Source: Clostridia bacterium (GTDB lineage: Bacteria > Bacillota > Clostridia > Oscillospirales > Acutalibacteraceae). Taken from it: a stretch of 64,000 bases of DNA. The stretch is taken from the NCBI GenBank assembly GCA_017466365.1, contig JAFTUG010000012.1, positions 1 to 64,000 on the forward strand. Direction: 5' to 3'. A model generated the notes under the pieces. The model saw only the letters and a list, made by a program, of their open reading frames with translations. It did not search any database and was not told the origin of the DNA. Positions 53,062 to 58,131 of the stretch are shown here, piece after piece. The first letter of the stretch is position 1. Each line of letters starts with the position of its first letter. A program made the translations under genes and the position numbers.

Positions 53062-53691
53062 ATGATACAATATTTTCTTGAAAGACCTTATCTTATAGCG
53101 ATAATGGCTGCCGTTATTCTGCTTACGCTGTTTGTGTGCGTAAAAGCGGGTCAGGCAAGTGCGAAAAGGTCAAAGGCAAATGAAGCAATTATCAAAAGGC
53201 TCAAGGAAGAGAATGAGCTTCGCAATGAATTTTCGGTGCTTACGGAAAAGCTTGCAGCCGATGCAGATGCAATTCGTCTTTTCAAAGGGGTTGCTCTAAA
53301 TTTGCAGAAAAAGATTTCCGATGCCGAGGATATGATTTCTGAATTTGATGCCCTTAACGATGCACAGAGGGATATTTATGCTCTTTCGTTTGTTGTTGAG
53401 GACGGAGAGAAGGCTTTGAGTGACTTTTTCAGGGCAAACGGTCAGCCTCTTACGCGGACTTCTCTCGGTGCCGTAAAAAGGCTTTTCAACGGCAAGATAT
53501 ATGAGATATTTGAAAAAGAATACAACGCATTTGATTCCGAAAATGAAGATGCATCAATGATTCCGAGTGAGATCGATGCGCTTGATAAAGAGTTTGCGGA
53601 AATTATTTCCGCAGATGAAATCTGCCGTAAAGCAGGCGGCTTCATAAAGGATAATATCGATAAGTTTATATATAATTCAGCCTCATGTTAG
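53062..53691 (+). CDS. Membrane-anchored coiled-coil protein, unknown
   Basis: 209 residues. An N-terminal membrane helix (about 10-30) leads into a charged helix with coiled-coil character (ANEAIIKRLKEENELRNEFSVL) and then a mostly helical domain rich in Asp/Glu. No family recognised. Its ribosome site GAGGAG is formed by the last codons of rsmI, so the two are coupled. The final codons and stop lie inside the terminator stem. Confidence 0.72.
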   Translation: MIQYFLERPYLIAIMAAVILLTLFVCVKAGQASAKRSKANEAIIKRLKEENELRNEFSVLTEKLAADADAIRLFKGVALNLQKKISDAEDMISEFDALNDAQRDIYALSFVVEDGEKALSDFFRANGQPLTRTSLGAVKRLFNGKIYEIFEKEYNAFDSENEDASMIPSEIDALDKEFAEIISADEICRKAGGFIKDNIDKFIYNSASC

Positions 53692-53710
53692 AAAACGTGA
53701 GGCTGTTTTT
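53679..53710 (+). terminator. Terminator embedded in the gene end
   Basis: CAGCCTCA (53679-53686) with TGAGGCTG (53698-53705), then TTTTT. The stop codon at 53689-53691 is within the loop. Confidence 0.8.
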
Positions 53711-53825
53711 ATGCAAATCAACGAAATGTAAAAAAAATGAAAATTACTGTTGACTTATCGGTTTTTTGGACATAGAATGAAGTCAAAATTCCTTATAAAT
53801 TATAATTTAAAAGGAGTGAATAAAA

Positions 53826-56087
53826 ATGATACCAAAGGATTTGTTAATCAACAAGCCTGCAAGCAGTTCGATTGCCAAAATTGCCGAAAAGCAGTTCAAA
53901 GGTAATGAAAAACCGCTTTTTGCCGTTGTGGGCGACCTTGCGGTTGACAGCCGTTACGGTGAGGGGGCGGTGTATGTTACCGACAGCCGCATTGTTGCAG
54001 TCGGTGACGGCTTTGATGAGGGCTTCATCAGCCTTGATTTTGCCAATATTGCCGAAATTTCCGTTAAAAGAATGTACGGCAATGCTGTGCTTAAGGCAAA
54101 AACTACGGGCGGTTCAACCATTGATCTTATGAGATTTACCTTTGCAATTGCCGATATGTGCGATGCGGTTGCAGATTTTATCTCAAAGGTCAACGAAGGA
54201 GAAACCGTTGAAAACAGATTTGCTGCCGTTGAGTCAACGTTCAGAAATCTGCGTTCATTCTGCCCGAAATGCGGCAGAAAGCTTGCTTCGCCCAATGCCG
54301 AGTGCCTTAACTGTCAGGGCAAAAAGAAGATGGTTTCAACTCTGTATAAGTACATAAAGCCTTATACGGGCAAACTCCTTTTCTGTATTGTTCTTTCAAT
54401 TATCACAACGGGTGCGGCGCTTGTTCCGCCTTATGTTACAAGCATGATGGTTGATAACATAATTCCCAACAGAGATAAAAGAATGCTTGTTATCATTATT
54501 CTTTTCCTTCTCGGAGTTTATTTTGCGCAGTATGCAATCGGTGCTTTGCGTTCGTATATTCTCCGAGTTGCGGGTGACGGAATAATTGCTGACCTTAAAA
54601 AGGAAATCTACGCAAAGGCGCAGTATCTTCCCATGAAGTTTTACGATAAAACCTCAACAGGCTCGGTTATCAACAGAGTAAATTCCGACACAACCGTTCT
54701 TCAGCAGTTTATGCTGCGAATAACGCAGGAAGCAGTTGTTCAGCTCTTTATGATGATTGGTATTATCATTATAATGCTCAGCATGAACTGGCGCCTTACT
54801 CTTCTTTCGCTTATTCCCGTTCCCGTGGTTGTTGTGTGCAGCCGCTTTTTCGGCAGAAAAATCGGACCTCTTTACCGCAGAATATGGCGCAGAGGTGTTG
54901 CGATTTCAAGCATTCTTGCCGACACAATTCCCGGAATAAGAATAGTTAAATCCTTCTCAAAAGAAGAAAAAACAATCAAAAAGTTTTCCTATCAAGTTGA
55001 TGACTGGCTTGCCGAGGATAAAAAGGTTGCCAAGATTGCAGCGATTTTCCCTGCGGCAATAACCTTCCTTATCACCTGCGGCTCGGTAATTATCTGGTTT
55101 GTCGGCGGTAACATGGTTATCAACACTCCCGATAAGCTTTCTCTCGGTGTTCTTGTTTCGTTTATTTCTTATACCAGTATGTTTTATAATCCCGTAAACT
55201 TTTTCGCAAATTTAAGCGACTCATATCAGAATGCTCTCGCTTCAACAGAAAAGGTTATGGATATTATCAATGCTGAACCCGAACACGATTTCGGAAAAGG
55301 CTCCGAAATGGGAGTTATGCAGGGCAAGATTGAGTTCAGAAATGTCAATTTTTCCTTTGATCGTTCAAAGAAGGTTCTCAATGATATTAATTTTGTTATC
55401 GAACCGGGCGATGTTGTCGGTATAGTCGGCACAACCGGCTCGGGTAAATCAACACTCATAAATCTGCTCATGCGTTTCTATGATGATTATGAAGGCGAAA
55501 TTTTGGTTGACGGCGTTAATATCCGTGATATCGATATGTCTTATTACCGCTCGCAGATAGGCTATGTTCAGCAGGAACCCATGATGTTCCGCGATACCAT
55601 ATTTAATAATATTGCCTATTCTCTTCCCGGCGCACATCCGGAACAGGTGCTCAATGCTGCCGATATAGCGAATGCCCACGGCTTTATTTCCCGACTTCCC
55701 GATGCATATGATACAATGCTCGGTGAAAGGGGCGTAGGCCTTTCAGGCGGTGAAAAACAGCGTCTTTCAATCGCAAGAGCCGTTCTTAAAAATCCGGGTG
55801 TTCTTATTTTCGATGAAGCAACATCCGCGGTTGACTCCGAAACCGAAAAACTCATTCAGGATGCAATCAACCGACTTATCCGAGGCAGAACAACTCTTAT
55901 GATTGCTCACCGACTTTCAACTCTCCGCAAGGCAAACAAAATTATTGTTGTAGATAAGGGAAATATCATAGAATTCGGTTCACCCGAAGAGCTTATGGCG
56001 CTTAAGGGTAAGTATTATAAGCTCATTCAGATTCAGTCCATGAGTGAGCAGGTAGCGGCGGAAAAAGCTGCGGAAAATTTTGAATAA
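53826..56087 (+). CDS. ABC exporter with N-terminal PH-like domain and zinc ribbon
   Basis: 753 residues, about 170 longer than ordinary half-exporters. Residues 1-140 form a PH/bPH-like beta domain (GDLAVDSRYGEGAVYVTDSR, VKRMYGNAVLKAK) and a zinc ribbon follows with Cys 146, 149, 160 and 163 (CPKCGRK...CLNC). Six membrane helices come next (about 180-470), then an ATPase domain with GTTGSGKST (about 535), signature LSGGEKQ (about 639), Walker B LIFDEATSAVD and AHRLST, all catalytic residues present, so a homodimer can work. DUF1854 and darA genes follow within 12 and 18 bp. The arrangement of such an ABC protein with DUF1854 is known from other bacteria; the cargo is not. Confidence 0.9.
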   Translation: MIPKDLLINKPASSSIAKIAEKQFKGNEKPLFAVVGDLAVDSRYGEGAVYVTDSRIVAVGDGFDEGFISLDFANIAEISVKRMYGNAVLKAKTTGGSTIDLMRFTFAIADMCDAVADFISKVNEGETVENRFAAVESTFRNLRSFCPKCGRKLASPNAECLNCQGKKKMVSTLYKYIKPYTGKLLFCIVLSIITTGAALVPPYVTSMMVDNIIPNRDKRMLVIIILFLLGVYFAQYAIGALRSYILRVAGDGIIADLKKEIYAKAQYLPMKFYDKTSTGSVINRVNSDTTVLQQFMLRITQEAVVQLFMMIGIIIIMLSMNWRLTLLSLIPVPVVVVCSRFFGRKIGPLYRRIWRRGVAISSILADTIPGIRIVKSFSKEEKTIKKFSYQVDDWLAEDKKVAKIAAIFPAAITFLITCGSVIIWFVGGNMVINTPDKLSLGVLVSFISYTSMFYNPVNFFANLSDSYQNALASTEKVMDIINAEPEHDFGKGSEMGVMQGKIEFRNVNFSFDRSKKVLNDINFVIEPGDVVGIVGTTGSGKSTLINLLMRFYDDYEGEILVDGVNIRDIDMSYYRSQIGYVQQEPMMFRDTIFNNIAYSLPGAHPEQVLNAADIANAHGFISRLPDAYDTMLGERGVGLSGGEKQRLSIARAVLKNPGVLIFDEATSAVDSETEKLIQDAINRLIRGRTTLMIAHRLSTLRKANKIIVVDKGNIIEFGSPEELMALKGKYYKLIQIQSMSEQVAAEKAAENFE

Positions 56088-56099
56088 GGAGGGCTTCAT

Positions 56100-56588
56100 A
56101 TGTCAAGAAACTTTATAGACGGCAACGAAATACGCATAACCGTAAAAGATAAGATTTTCTGCGATGTGGAGTTCTTCACGGGCGAAAAGTTTGAAAATCT
56201 CGAGCCTCGCAGACTGTTTCCCGTCAGCGGTCTTTCGGAATATATAACCTTCCTCGATGAAAACGGTGAAGAACAGTTTATAATCCGAAAGCTCGATAAC
56301 ATGGAGCCAACGCAGAAAGAATTGCTTCTCGGCTGCCTTGAGGAATATTACAGAATTCCGAAGATAACAAGACTTATAAGCCGAAGTGAAAAGCATAAAA
56401 TCTGGCTCTGGAATGTTGAAACCGACAGAGGTGTATATACCTTTGAGATTATCAACCATATCCAGTCTATGAAAATGTTCTATGATAAACGTATTCTCAT
56501 AAAAGACGGCAACGATAACCGTTACGAGATACCAAATATTTATGAACTCGATAAACGCAGTCAGAAGCTTATTTTACCTGATATGTAA
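56100..56588 (+). CDS. DUF1854 family protein
   Basis: 162 residues, soluble, beta-rich. NEIRITVKDKIFCDVEFFTGEKFENLEPRRLFPVSG opens like the DUF1854 domain, with the YITFLDENGEEQF strand pair, then a helical EEYYRIPKITRL and the WNVETDRGVYTFEIINH strand region. DUF1854 proteins accompany a specific ABC exporter in many phyla, in some cases near cyanophycin genes, and are presumed subunits or chaperones of it. AAGGAGG lies before ATG 56100. There is no cyanophycin synthetase here. Confidence 0.85.
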   Translation: MSRNFIDGNEIRITVKDKIFCDVEFFTGEKFENLEPRRLFPVSGLSEYITFLDENGEEQFIIRKLDNMEPTQKELLLGCLEEYYRIPKITRLISRSEKHKIWLWNVETDRGVYTFEIINHIQSMKMFYDKRILIKDGNDNRYEIPNIYELDKRSQKLILPDM

Positions 56589-56606
56589 TGAAAGGAAAAT
56601 GATGAT

Positions 56607-56933
56607 ATGAAACTTATACTTGCAATTGTAAATAATGATGACAGCGCGGTTGTATCCGCAACTCTTACCAAAGAAAACTACAGCGTAACAAAGCTTTCCA
56701 CAACAGGCGGATTCCTTATGATAGGCAACACAACCCTCCTTATCGGTGCGGAGGACGACAGAGTTGCAAGAGCAAAGGAAATTATTCACGAATATTCAAG
56801 AACAAGAAACAAGGTTGCAATGACTACCGGCTCACTCGGCAGAGGACTCCAGAATAACAGCCTCGAAGAAGAAGTTACCGTCGGCGGTGCAACAGTGTTT
56901 GTGCTCGACGTTGAAAGCATGGATAAATATTAA
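56607..56933 (+). CDS. darA: DarA/PstA c-di-AMP receptor, PII-like
   Basis: 108 residues, the length of the PII-like receptor. The family blocks are MKLILAIVNNDDSAVVSATLTKENYSVTKLSTTGGF (with the T-loop-proximal TGGF), NTTLLIGAEDDRV, and the C-terminal GGATVFVLDVESMDKY. It binds cyclic di-AMP as a trimer in the cytosol; its output in most species is unknown. AAAGGA lies upstream of ATG 56607. It is placed between the DUF1854 gene (18 bp) and the secreted phosphoesterase gene (13 bp). Confidence 0.94.
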   Translation: MKLILAIVNNDDSAVVSATLTKENYSVTKLSTTGGFLMIGNTTLLIGAEDDRVARAKEIIHEYSRTRNKVAMTTGSLGRGLQNNSLEEEVTVGGATVFVLDVESMDKY

Positions 56934-56946
56934 TAAGGAGATAAAA

Positions 56947-58131
56947 ATGAAAAGAATAATCAGCATATTTCTTGCAATAGCATTTATGTTTTCTCTTTGC
57001 ATATGTGCAAATGCAGGAAATAACGAGCTTAAATTCGGCTCGGACGGCAAATTCACCGTTCTTCAGATAAGTGACCCACAGGATGACCATAATCCCGCAT
57101 ACGATATGGTAAATCTTATAAAAATTTCCATTGAACAGACTAATCCCGATCTTATAATTTTTACGGGGGATATCGTTGAGGACAGCCGTATAGGCGATAT
57201 CGGAATTGACGATGAACCTTTCCGCGAGGGCGTTGAGGTTGACAGCTATGAGCAGACACTTGCAAATGTTACCGCAACATGTGCTGCCGTTTTTGCCGAG
57301 GCTGAAAGCAGGGGAATACCCTTTGCGGTATGCCAGGGCAACAATGATTATAAAAGCGGGGTCACAACCGAGGATTGGCTTAAAATCTATGACAGCTATG
57401 AAAACAGCCTTACCGTTGACGAAAGTAACGATGAAAACGGCAGGATAGATTTTAACCTTGAAATTAAGTCGAGTGACGGAAAGGAAACCGTTTTCAATAT
57501 CTGGATGACAGATACGGGAACAAACTCCGTTACCGAGGAGCAAATCAATTGGTATAAATCCGAAAGTGCTGCTCTTAAAGCCGCCAACGGCGGTGAACCC
57601 GTGCCTTCAATTCTTTTTCAGCATATTCCGACCGATGATATCGGCAATCTTTTTGAGGAATGCAATTTCTGGGATGAGGGCGCAAGCATAGAAGGTTCAA
57701 AATGCTACCGCCTTAATCAGGAAATCGCAAGCGGCTATCATGCAGGTGCAATCGCTCCGGGTTCAACAAGCGAGCAGTTCAAGGCATGGAAGGAATGCGG
57801 AGATGTTCTCGGTGCATATTTCGGTCATTGGCATACCGAGGGTTATACAGGCACATGGGATGGTATTGAGCTTGGCTTTACCTACGGCTGCGAATTTGCA
57901 AAGCCCGGTCCCTACGGTGTAAGAGTATTTACTCTTTATGAGGATGATATAAAGAATTTCGATAATGAGCTTTATACCTACGAAGGCAGCGTAAAGAACG
58001 GCAATGCCCGCCTTGAGCTTCAGATTGATGAGCCTTATGAAGAGTATGATAATGCTGTTGAAGAGATTATAGGCGCAATCAAAAATGTGTTTATTCTTTT
58101 AAAAACAGAAATAGTAAGCTTGTTTGCTTAA
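56947..58131 (+). CDS. Secreted calcineurin-like metallophosphoesterase
   Basis: 394 residues with a signal peptide (KR, hydrophobic core, cleavage near CANAG). Motifs are ISDPQDDH (D-x-Q), FTGDIVED (GD), CQGNNDYKS (GNND instead of GNHD), FQHIPT (His) and YFGHWHTEG (GHWH). The same D-x-Q and FQHI pattern appears in 12376-13569, so the two are paralogues; here the GNND change may affect catalysis. Extracellular nucleotide or phosphoester hydrolysis is likely. AAGGAG precedes ATG 56947, 13 bp after darA. Confidence 0.86.
   Translation: MKRIISIFLAIAFMFSLCICANAGNNELKFGSDGKFTVLQISDPQDDHNPAYDMVNLIKISIEQTNPDLIIFTGDIVEDSRIGDIGIDDEPFREGVEVDSYEQTLANVTATCAAVFAEAESRGIPFAVCQGNNDYKSGVTTEDWLKIYDSYENSLTVDESNDENGRIDFNLEIKSSDGKETVFNIWMTDTGTNSVTEEQINWYKSESAALKAANGGEPVPSILFQHIPTDDIGNLFEECNFWDEGASIEGSKCYRLNQEIASGYHAGAIAPGSTSEQFKAWKECGDVLGAYFGHWHTEGYTGTWDGIELGFTYGCEFAKPGPYGVRVFTLYEDDIKNFDNELYTYEGSVKNGNARLELQIDEPYEEYDNAVEEIIGAIKNVFILLKTEIVSLFA

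Follow-up and report, generated by a model that had tools for sequence, protein, structure and literature searches.

Why should a member of the DarA/PstA family be encoded directly behind an ATP-binding cassette (ABC) exporter? This question is raised by a locus of a Clostridia bacterium of the family Acutalibacteraceae (assembly GCA_017466365.1), contained in the window analyzed here, that is, the first 64,000 nucleotides of contig JAFTUG010000012.1. Between positions 53826 and 58131 of the + strand, genes for an ABC exporter, a DUF1854 protein, a DarA protein (hereafter DarA2) and a metallophosphoesterase follow one another with intergenic gaps of 12, 18 and 13 bp, an arrangement already described in a sequence-only reading of this DNA and confirmed here by the coordinates and by Pfam matches. 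The answer that we put forward, by comparison of genomes and proteins, is that DarA2 probably gates the ABC exporter in response to cyclic di-AMP (c-di-AMP). Gene order, ancestry and an apparent joint transfer tie one DarA lineage to one exporter in many gut bacteria.

A role of DarA/PstA as a c-di-AMP receptor has been recognized since around 2015. With regard to its output, the portions available to us of a 2021 paper (PMC7857571) and of a 2025 paper (PMC12802241) give neither a function nor a target, and a passage of Choi et al. (2015) called the regulation of a membrane transporter by PstA feasible (PMC4475381). Among openly licensed PubMed Central (PMC) papers, we found none that joined YaaQ to both a transporter and c-di-AMP; a report elsewhere is possible.

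Recurrence of the ABC-DUF1854-DarA module

A named genome collection was scanned with the DUF1854 alignment alone, as one peptide pattern, and the best 80 of the 244 relatives were taken. DarA was located downstream of DUF1854 in all of these 80 loci, at distances of 11–73 bp in 79 of them, while in the remaining one (L148) DarA lay 1584 bp from DUF1854 with a DUF6056 gene in between. Recurrent linkage of both genes in other genomes had been set beforehand as one half of the test of the sequence-only reading, and its suggestion that c-di-AMP may gate the exporter comes out strengthened, since such linkage fits gating. Many of the best 80 loci belong to close kin (gut and rumen metagenome assemblies), and they overlap with the genus and class genome sets described below; the spread over families, together with the 47 distinct linked DarAs (<85% identity), is a better measure than the number of loci.

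Within the genus, 45 genomes yielded 57 DUF1854 matches and 45 DarA matches. Twenty-five of these 45 DarAs, from 24 genomes, were encoded directly downstream of DUF1854 on the same strand and the other 20 were not, and the DarA scores split in the same way (100–109 bits for linked and 118–133 bits for unlinked proteins). At the level of the order, DUF1854 was present in 77 and DarA in 121 out of 197 genomes (own genome included), with the adjacent pair in 12 genomes besides our own. For the class (293 genomes; DUF1854 in 46, DarA in 149), the pair was found in 10 further genomes, as read from the fetched loci and the DarA matches listed; in one of them (G243), DUF1854 is cut by the contig end. 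The linked pair thus occurred in 22 genomes outside the genus, which carry 11 family codes, own family included, and 12 of the 22 (drafts, 83–98% complete) yielded no DarA besides the linked one. This recurrence of ABC-DUF1854-DarA is far above chance.

The DUF1854 loci fell into two main types. Type A comprises one ABC gene, a short DUF1854 and usually DarA, while in type B DUF1854 is followed by a second ABC gene (ABC'); the typing covered the loci fetched with 1500-base flanks, one of which (L124) fits neither type. An adjacent DarA accompanied the type A exporter in 23/23 genus, 10/12 order and 9/12 class loci (one of the class exceptions being situated at a contig end), in contrast to type B, where none was observed in the genus (0/6), the order (0/17) or the class (0/16), i.e., in 0/39 loci overall. 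The 20 neighbourhoods inspected (up to 15 kb each, with part of L073 left out) contained no gene family other than ABC, DUF1854 and DarA that was common to several bacterial families, and the genes downstream of the module varied between loci.

DarA2 is a second DarA copy with conserved ligand-contact residues

The darA2 gene (56607..56933, + strand; 108 amino acids) encodes a core member of the module, whose match to PF06153 was well above the curated cut-off (109.2 vs. 27 bits). The genome contains two DarA genes, DarA2 and another one on contig C12 that lies beside holB and psp1. In the six species examined by Choi et al. (2015), according to the part of that paper at hand, pstA was always found with tmk (PMC4475381). 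This canonical place, beside tmk or holB, is held in our genome by the C12 gene and not by DarA2, and the window DarA is the exporter's own copy, a status that the sequence-only reading had missed.

As described in the sections seen of a structural study on Staphylococcus aureus PstA, the exchanges T28A and GGFL-to-AAAA abolish measurable c-di-AMP binding, N41A weakens it, and the ligand is also contacted by G47, F36 and F99 (PMC4316997). All of the residues needed for binding in that protein (T28, GGFL at 34–37 and N41) are present in DarA2. Among linked DarAs, T28, G34, L37, N41 and F98 were kept in 48/48 sequences, G35 and G47 in 47/48, and F36 in 46/48. DarA2 shares with DarA/PstA the family, the length, the main c-di-AMP contact residues, D12 and R67. 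It differs in being a second copy within an exporter operon and away from tmk and holB, in belonging to its own clade, in a signature of its B'-loop, and in scoring below the NCBIfam cut-off. A c-di-AMP synthase domain was detected in all 26 genomes tested outside the genus (the 22 with a linked pair plus four with a DarA-less exporter) and in 41 of the 45 genus genomes. Judged from the contact residues, DarA2 is likely to bind c-di-AMP.

The signature is located in the B'-loop, which the same study proposed, in the part available, as the effector-binding surface of PstA (PMC4316997). F, L or Y occupied position 77 in 48/48 linked DarAs, G78 was found in 48/48 linked vs. 21/38 unlinked proteins, and G80 in 43/48 vs. 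7/38; the 38 unlinked DarAs were picked by hand, and the linked and unlinked sets were thinned jointly at 85% identity. The partial DarA of L229 was dropped from both the residue comparison and the tree described below, and L148, despite its distant DarA, was treated as a linked locus in the trees.

A probable common history of exporter, DUF1854 and DarA

In a tree of 85 DarA sequences, the 47 linked DarAs formed one group, with one label change compared to a mean of 28.1 after shuffling (as few in 0/500 shuffles). Among the 40 ABC sequences of a second tree, the DarA-less type A exporters of G281 and G497 branched, with strong support, below the exporters linked to DarA, and those of G187 and G203 nested among the latter. 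The simplest history suggested by this branching is the addition of DarA to an older ABC-DUF1854 exporter, followed by a single later loss.

The distance matrices of ABC, DUF1854 and DarA also agreed with each other (r 0.70–0.79, 0/2000 permutations). One case concerns the module of G190, a member of our own family, and that of G268, from another order. Their identities amounted to 90% for ABC, 84% for DUF1854 and 79% for DarA, as compared with 65–69%, 43–49% and 53–60%, respectively, between G190 and modules of its own family, and the other DarAs of G190 and G268 shared 49% identity. With these values, all three genes appear to have been transferred together across orders; that is, they seem to have moved as a unit between the G190 and G268 lineages.

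Does DarA2 gate the exporter?

In the mechanism that we propose, the ABC protein would be the pump, presumably as a homodimer given the single ABC gene, DUF1854 its constant cytosolic partner, and DarA2 a PII-like, c-di-AMP-binding sensor dedicated to this pump. The B'-loop of DarA2 would dock on DUF1854 and/or on the N-terminal domain of the ABC protein, which combines a pleckstrin homology (PH)-like fold with a zinc ribbon, and changes in the c-di-AMP level would make DarA2 turn transport on or off, in a way resembling the action of GlnK on the ammonium channel. The sign of this control is a guess: the contacts of PII proteins are typically inhibited by ligand, according to a passage of a recent paper (PMC12802241), and by analogy the pump may be held by DarA2 without ligand and set free by c-di-AMP. 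In this scheme, we infer that DarA2 binds c-di-AMP and physically contacts the exporter, as well as the direction in which it acts and the substrate of the pump.

The same genomic data bear on a simpler explanation, namely that DarA2 is only co-expressed with the pump: it would be made with it for one condition, act on another target and never touch the exporter. Operon neighbours need not interact, and the canonical DarA adjoins holB and psp1 and, in the species of the published work (PMC4475381), tmk, with no contact to them known. However, the same three genes stay joined while the other neighbours change between families, the narrow spacing was kept in all but one of the best loci, the set was apparently transferred as a unit, and the linked DarAs have a B'-loop signature in common, so that we regard co-expression alone as unlikely.

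Several observations weigh against the gating of the exporter by DarA2. Four type A exporters have no adjacent DarA (L052/L081, L060/L080, L108/L238 and L110/L237), which means that the pump can exist without it. Support for the clade of linked DarAs is moderate (90/70), and, with the exception of the G190-G268 transfer, the agreement of the distance matrices could be obtained from shared descent alone. Taken over its full length, the B'-loop still varies (mean entropy 2.11 in linked vs. 2.30 in unlinked DarAs, a smaller gap than for the core), and its signature is therefore local. DarA2 scored below the cut-off of the NCBIfam DarA equivalog NF058593 (111.1 vs. 140 bits), the S. aureus contacts Arg26 and Gln108 are not conserved in linked DarAs (the correspondence of Gln108 resting on our own alignment), and the genome of the window, at 79.6% completeness, yielded no c-di-AMP synthase.

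The unconserved contacts and the low NCBIfam score would also be expected if DarA2 had changed its ligand and reported another nucleotide or metabolite to the pump. Against this stand the near-invariance here of the positions at which exchanges eliminated or weakened binding, according to the portion of the S. aureus study cited above (PMC4316997), the fact that position 26 varies in unlinked DarAs as well, and the presence of the synthase in every genome tested outside the genus. We consider such a change of ligand very unlikely.

A further alternative is that c-di-AMP is itself the cargo, with the pump expelling the excess and DarA2 opening it at high levels. A sensor of the exported molecule would provide a simple feedback, and proteins of the multidrug resistance (MDR) type have been reported to export c-di-AMP in Listeria and Lactococcus, as stated in the part seen of PMC6108528. 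Nothing in our analysis, however, points to any cargo, the reported c-di-AMP exporters are not of this ABC type, and, since DarA-less ABC-DUF1854 relatives exist, the ancestral cargo need not have been c-di-AMP. Export of c-di-AMP itself thus appears quite improbable.

Returning to the gating by DarA2, one protein outside the module has to be considered. G089 encodes, in one frame of 530 amino acids (L233:288-1877, G089:C257), a major facilitator superfamily (MFS) carrier (196.4 bits) with a C-terminal DarA domain (102.9 bits), which hints at an ability of DarA to act on transporters. To be set against it is that the full-length fusion was found in 1/295 genomes searched, and that this genome is 7% contaminated. 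A wider proposal would be that the DarA family, at least in Clostridia, acts as a GlnK-like transporter gate, with one lineage as the fixed regulator of the DUF1854 ABC exporter and another fused to an MFS carrier; this would make the exporter the first direct DarA/PstA target and a c-di-AMP-switched ABC exporter, with DUF1854 as the adaptor for the sensor. We advance this extension tentatively, and regard it as somewhat doubtful.

The metallophosphoesterase is a neighbour of one lineage

The fourth gene (56947..58131, + strand, with ATG at 56947) encodes a protein that exceeded the PF00149 cut-off (36.8 vs. 21.5 bits) and whose N terminus, as judged by eye, resembles a signal peptide. The sequence-only reading had counted this phosphoesterase as a part of the system and had proposed that the exporter releases a phosphorylated or nucleotide product, to be trimmed outside the cell. 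The gene lies 13 bp after darA2 in the window and adjoins 14/25 genus modules (at up to ~600 bp in G019). Two other modules of our own family precede different predicted secreted phosphoesterases, a PF01663 protein at L078:4567-5670 and a PF00149 protein (24.8 bits) at L071:4183-7080, which would likewise suit a trimmed product. Beyond these cases, the support did not hold: the phosphoesterase was a neighbour in 12/80 named loci (with a homologue upstream in three more), it was not recurrent beside the module outside close relatives, and its family is represented by 2–10 copies in each of the 45 genus genomes, module-free genomes included. We therefore rejected it as a core part; as a lineage-specific neighbour from a many-copy family, it most plausibly represents a passenger of one lineage. 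Export followed by trimming has no recurrent genomic support, and we rate it as extremely improbable.

In L144-L149, which count among the modules of our own family and its kin, different predicted secreted proteins are encoded after DarA, and that of L144 is a 530-amino acid protein without a Pfam match.

Features of the exporter and of DUF1854

The ABC exporter (53826..56087, + strand; 753 amino acids) is one half-transporter, in which the membrane and ATPase domains were both above cut-off (PF00664, 172.6 bits; PF00005, 111.8 bits). The sequence-only reading was right about its N terminus, where it had recognized a PH-like domain and a zinc ribbon. A model of residues 1–190 reached a predicted local distance difference test (pLDDT) value of 85.0, and the best PDB match in a Foldseek search was a PH-like domain (E 8.2e-5). 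This domain comprises about residues 1–123 (53826..54194, + strand); a KR-Y-GNA stretch within it (residues 81–87) was near-constant across 21 aligned sequences. The zinc ribbon, CPxCGR...CxxC, spans residues 146–163 (54261..54314, + strand), and its cysteines C146, C149, C160 and C163 were invariant in 21/21 aligned ABC sequences, although the Pfam double-zinc-ribbon match is weak (14.2 bits). There follow the transmembrane region (residues 184–457; 54375..55196, + strand) and the nucleotide-binding domain (about residues 518–737; 55377..56036, + strand). The motifs of the latter, as read from the sequence, appear intact: GTTGSGKST, LSGGE and LIFDEA, which we take to be Walker A, the signature and Walker B, respectively. 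The nearest PDB sequences were exporters (for example ABCB types, TM288 and Sav1866).

The DUF1854 protein (56100..56588, + strand; 162 amino acids), also a core member, exceeded the curated cut-off of PF08909 (131.2 vs. 26.8 bits). Its model (pLDDT 93.9) consists largely of beta structure, contains two helices and has a two-halves look, and the structure search returned no confident PDB match for it. No paper on DUF1854 or PF08909 was found among openly licensed PMC papers, a report elsewhere being possible. DUF1854 would gain a role if the control of the exporter by DarA2 were true.

In NCBIfam, the models closest to both proteins are named as cyanophycin-associated, and the link of that family to cyanophycin is this name. 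The same full-length ABC layout (profile positions 17–753 of 766) and the DUF1854 partner are shared with NF052233 and NF052234, yet the window proteins scored below the cut-offs of both (573.7 vs. 880 bits for the ABC protein and 73.4 vs. 150 bits for DUF1854), and DarA is the third gene in the window module. Since the NCBIfam scores of ABC, DUF1854 and DarA2 all lay below the cut-offs, these proteins are related to those families but do not count as certified members.

Type B loci of Clostridia share the ABC and DUF1854 families with the module and differ in that a second ABC gene replaces DarA. The N-terminal domain of ABC' was similar in 6/7 loci whose proteins were compared, most of which show the cysteine motif; in L035, L109, L116, L131 and L027, ABC' has a PH-like-looking start followed by a CPxC...CxxC ribbon. 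The PH-ribbon N terminus thus belongs to a wider group of DUF1854 exporters.

Comparison with known transporter regulators

The PII proteins of the pairs GlnK-AmtB and SbtB-SbtA control transporters. In these pairs as in our module, the gene for a small trimeric PII-fold sensor lies next to that of a transporter; the module differs in the family of its probable ligand (c-di-AMP), its ATP-driven ABC exporter and its extra DUF1854 partner. A constant gene partnership, one mark of a PII-type transporter regulator, was what the best 80 loci displayed for DarA2 throughout, and the module would represent a PII-type transporter regulator with an unusual pairing of ligand and pump. GlnK is named as a PII transporter regulator in the part seen of PMC4475381. 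Membrane export tied to c-di-AMP, as proposed for the module, is described for MdrT, MdrM and Llmg1210 in the sections available of PMC6108528; these proteins are not ABC transporters, and no DarA partner is described for them there. AexB, which the excerpt at hand of PMC13170310 describes as an exporter with a PII-like cap, is a different membrane protein. For DarA/PstA, two concrete candidate partners can now be named, DUF1854 and the N-terminal domain of the ABC protein, which renders the question of its target testable.

Upstream signals and other DarA contexts

Each of the four start codons is preceded by a GGAG or GGA stretch resembling a ribosome-binding site, as read from the sequence. 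Upstream of the module, a terminator-like hairpin (12 pairs followed by TTTTT; 53678..53705, + strand) closes the preceding gene, and a promoter-like site, TTGACT-17-TAGAAT (53750..53778, + strand), agrees with 10/12 consensus positions. Both are consensus matches only, and the 15 promoter-like matches in the whole scanned region were in no clear excess over shuffled sequences (mean 10.8, sd 3.6). A role in anti-phage defence was also considered and rejected, as a PADLOC scan returned only ATPase-domain matches of the ABC protein (mad3 and mad8) and none for the other three genes.

DarA genes were observed in several further contexts. In G150 (L231:3143-10456, G150:C98), a type B ABC-DUF1854-ABC' locus comes immediately after a darA-holB-psp1 row, with DarA ~2 kb upstream of the first ABC gene. 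Tandem pairs of DarA genes occur at L235:3220 and 3542 (G397:C2) and at L229:3867 and 4288 (G497:C24). The G342 genome holds four DarA matches, and at L228:3830-6480 (G342:C39) a divergent DarA is flanked on one side by a GntR regulator that has a TrkA_C domain and on the other by a B12-binding protein. Finally, at L234:1911-2924 (G499:C4), thymidylate kinase and DarA are fused in one frame of 338 amino acids, which is followed by holB-like and psp1-like genes.

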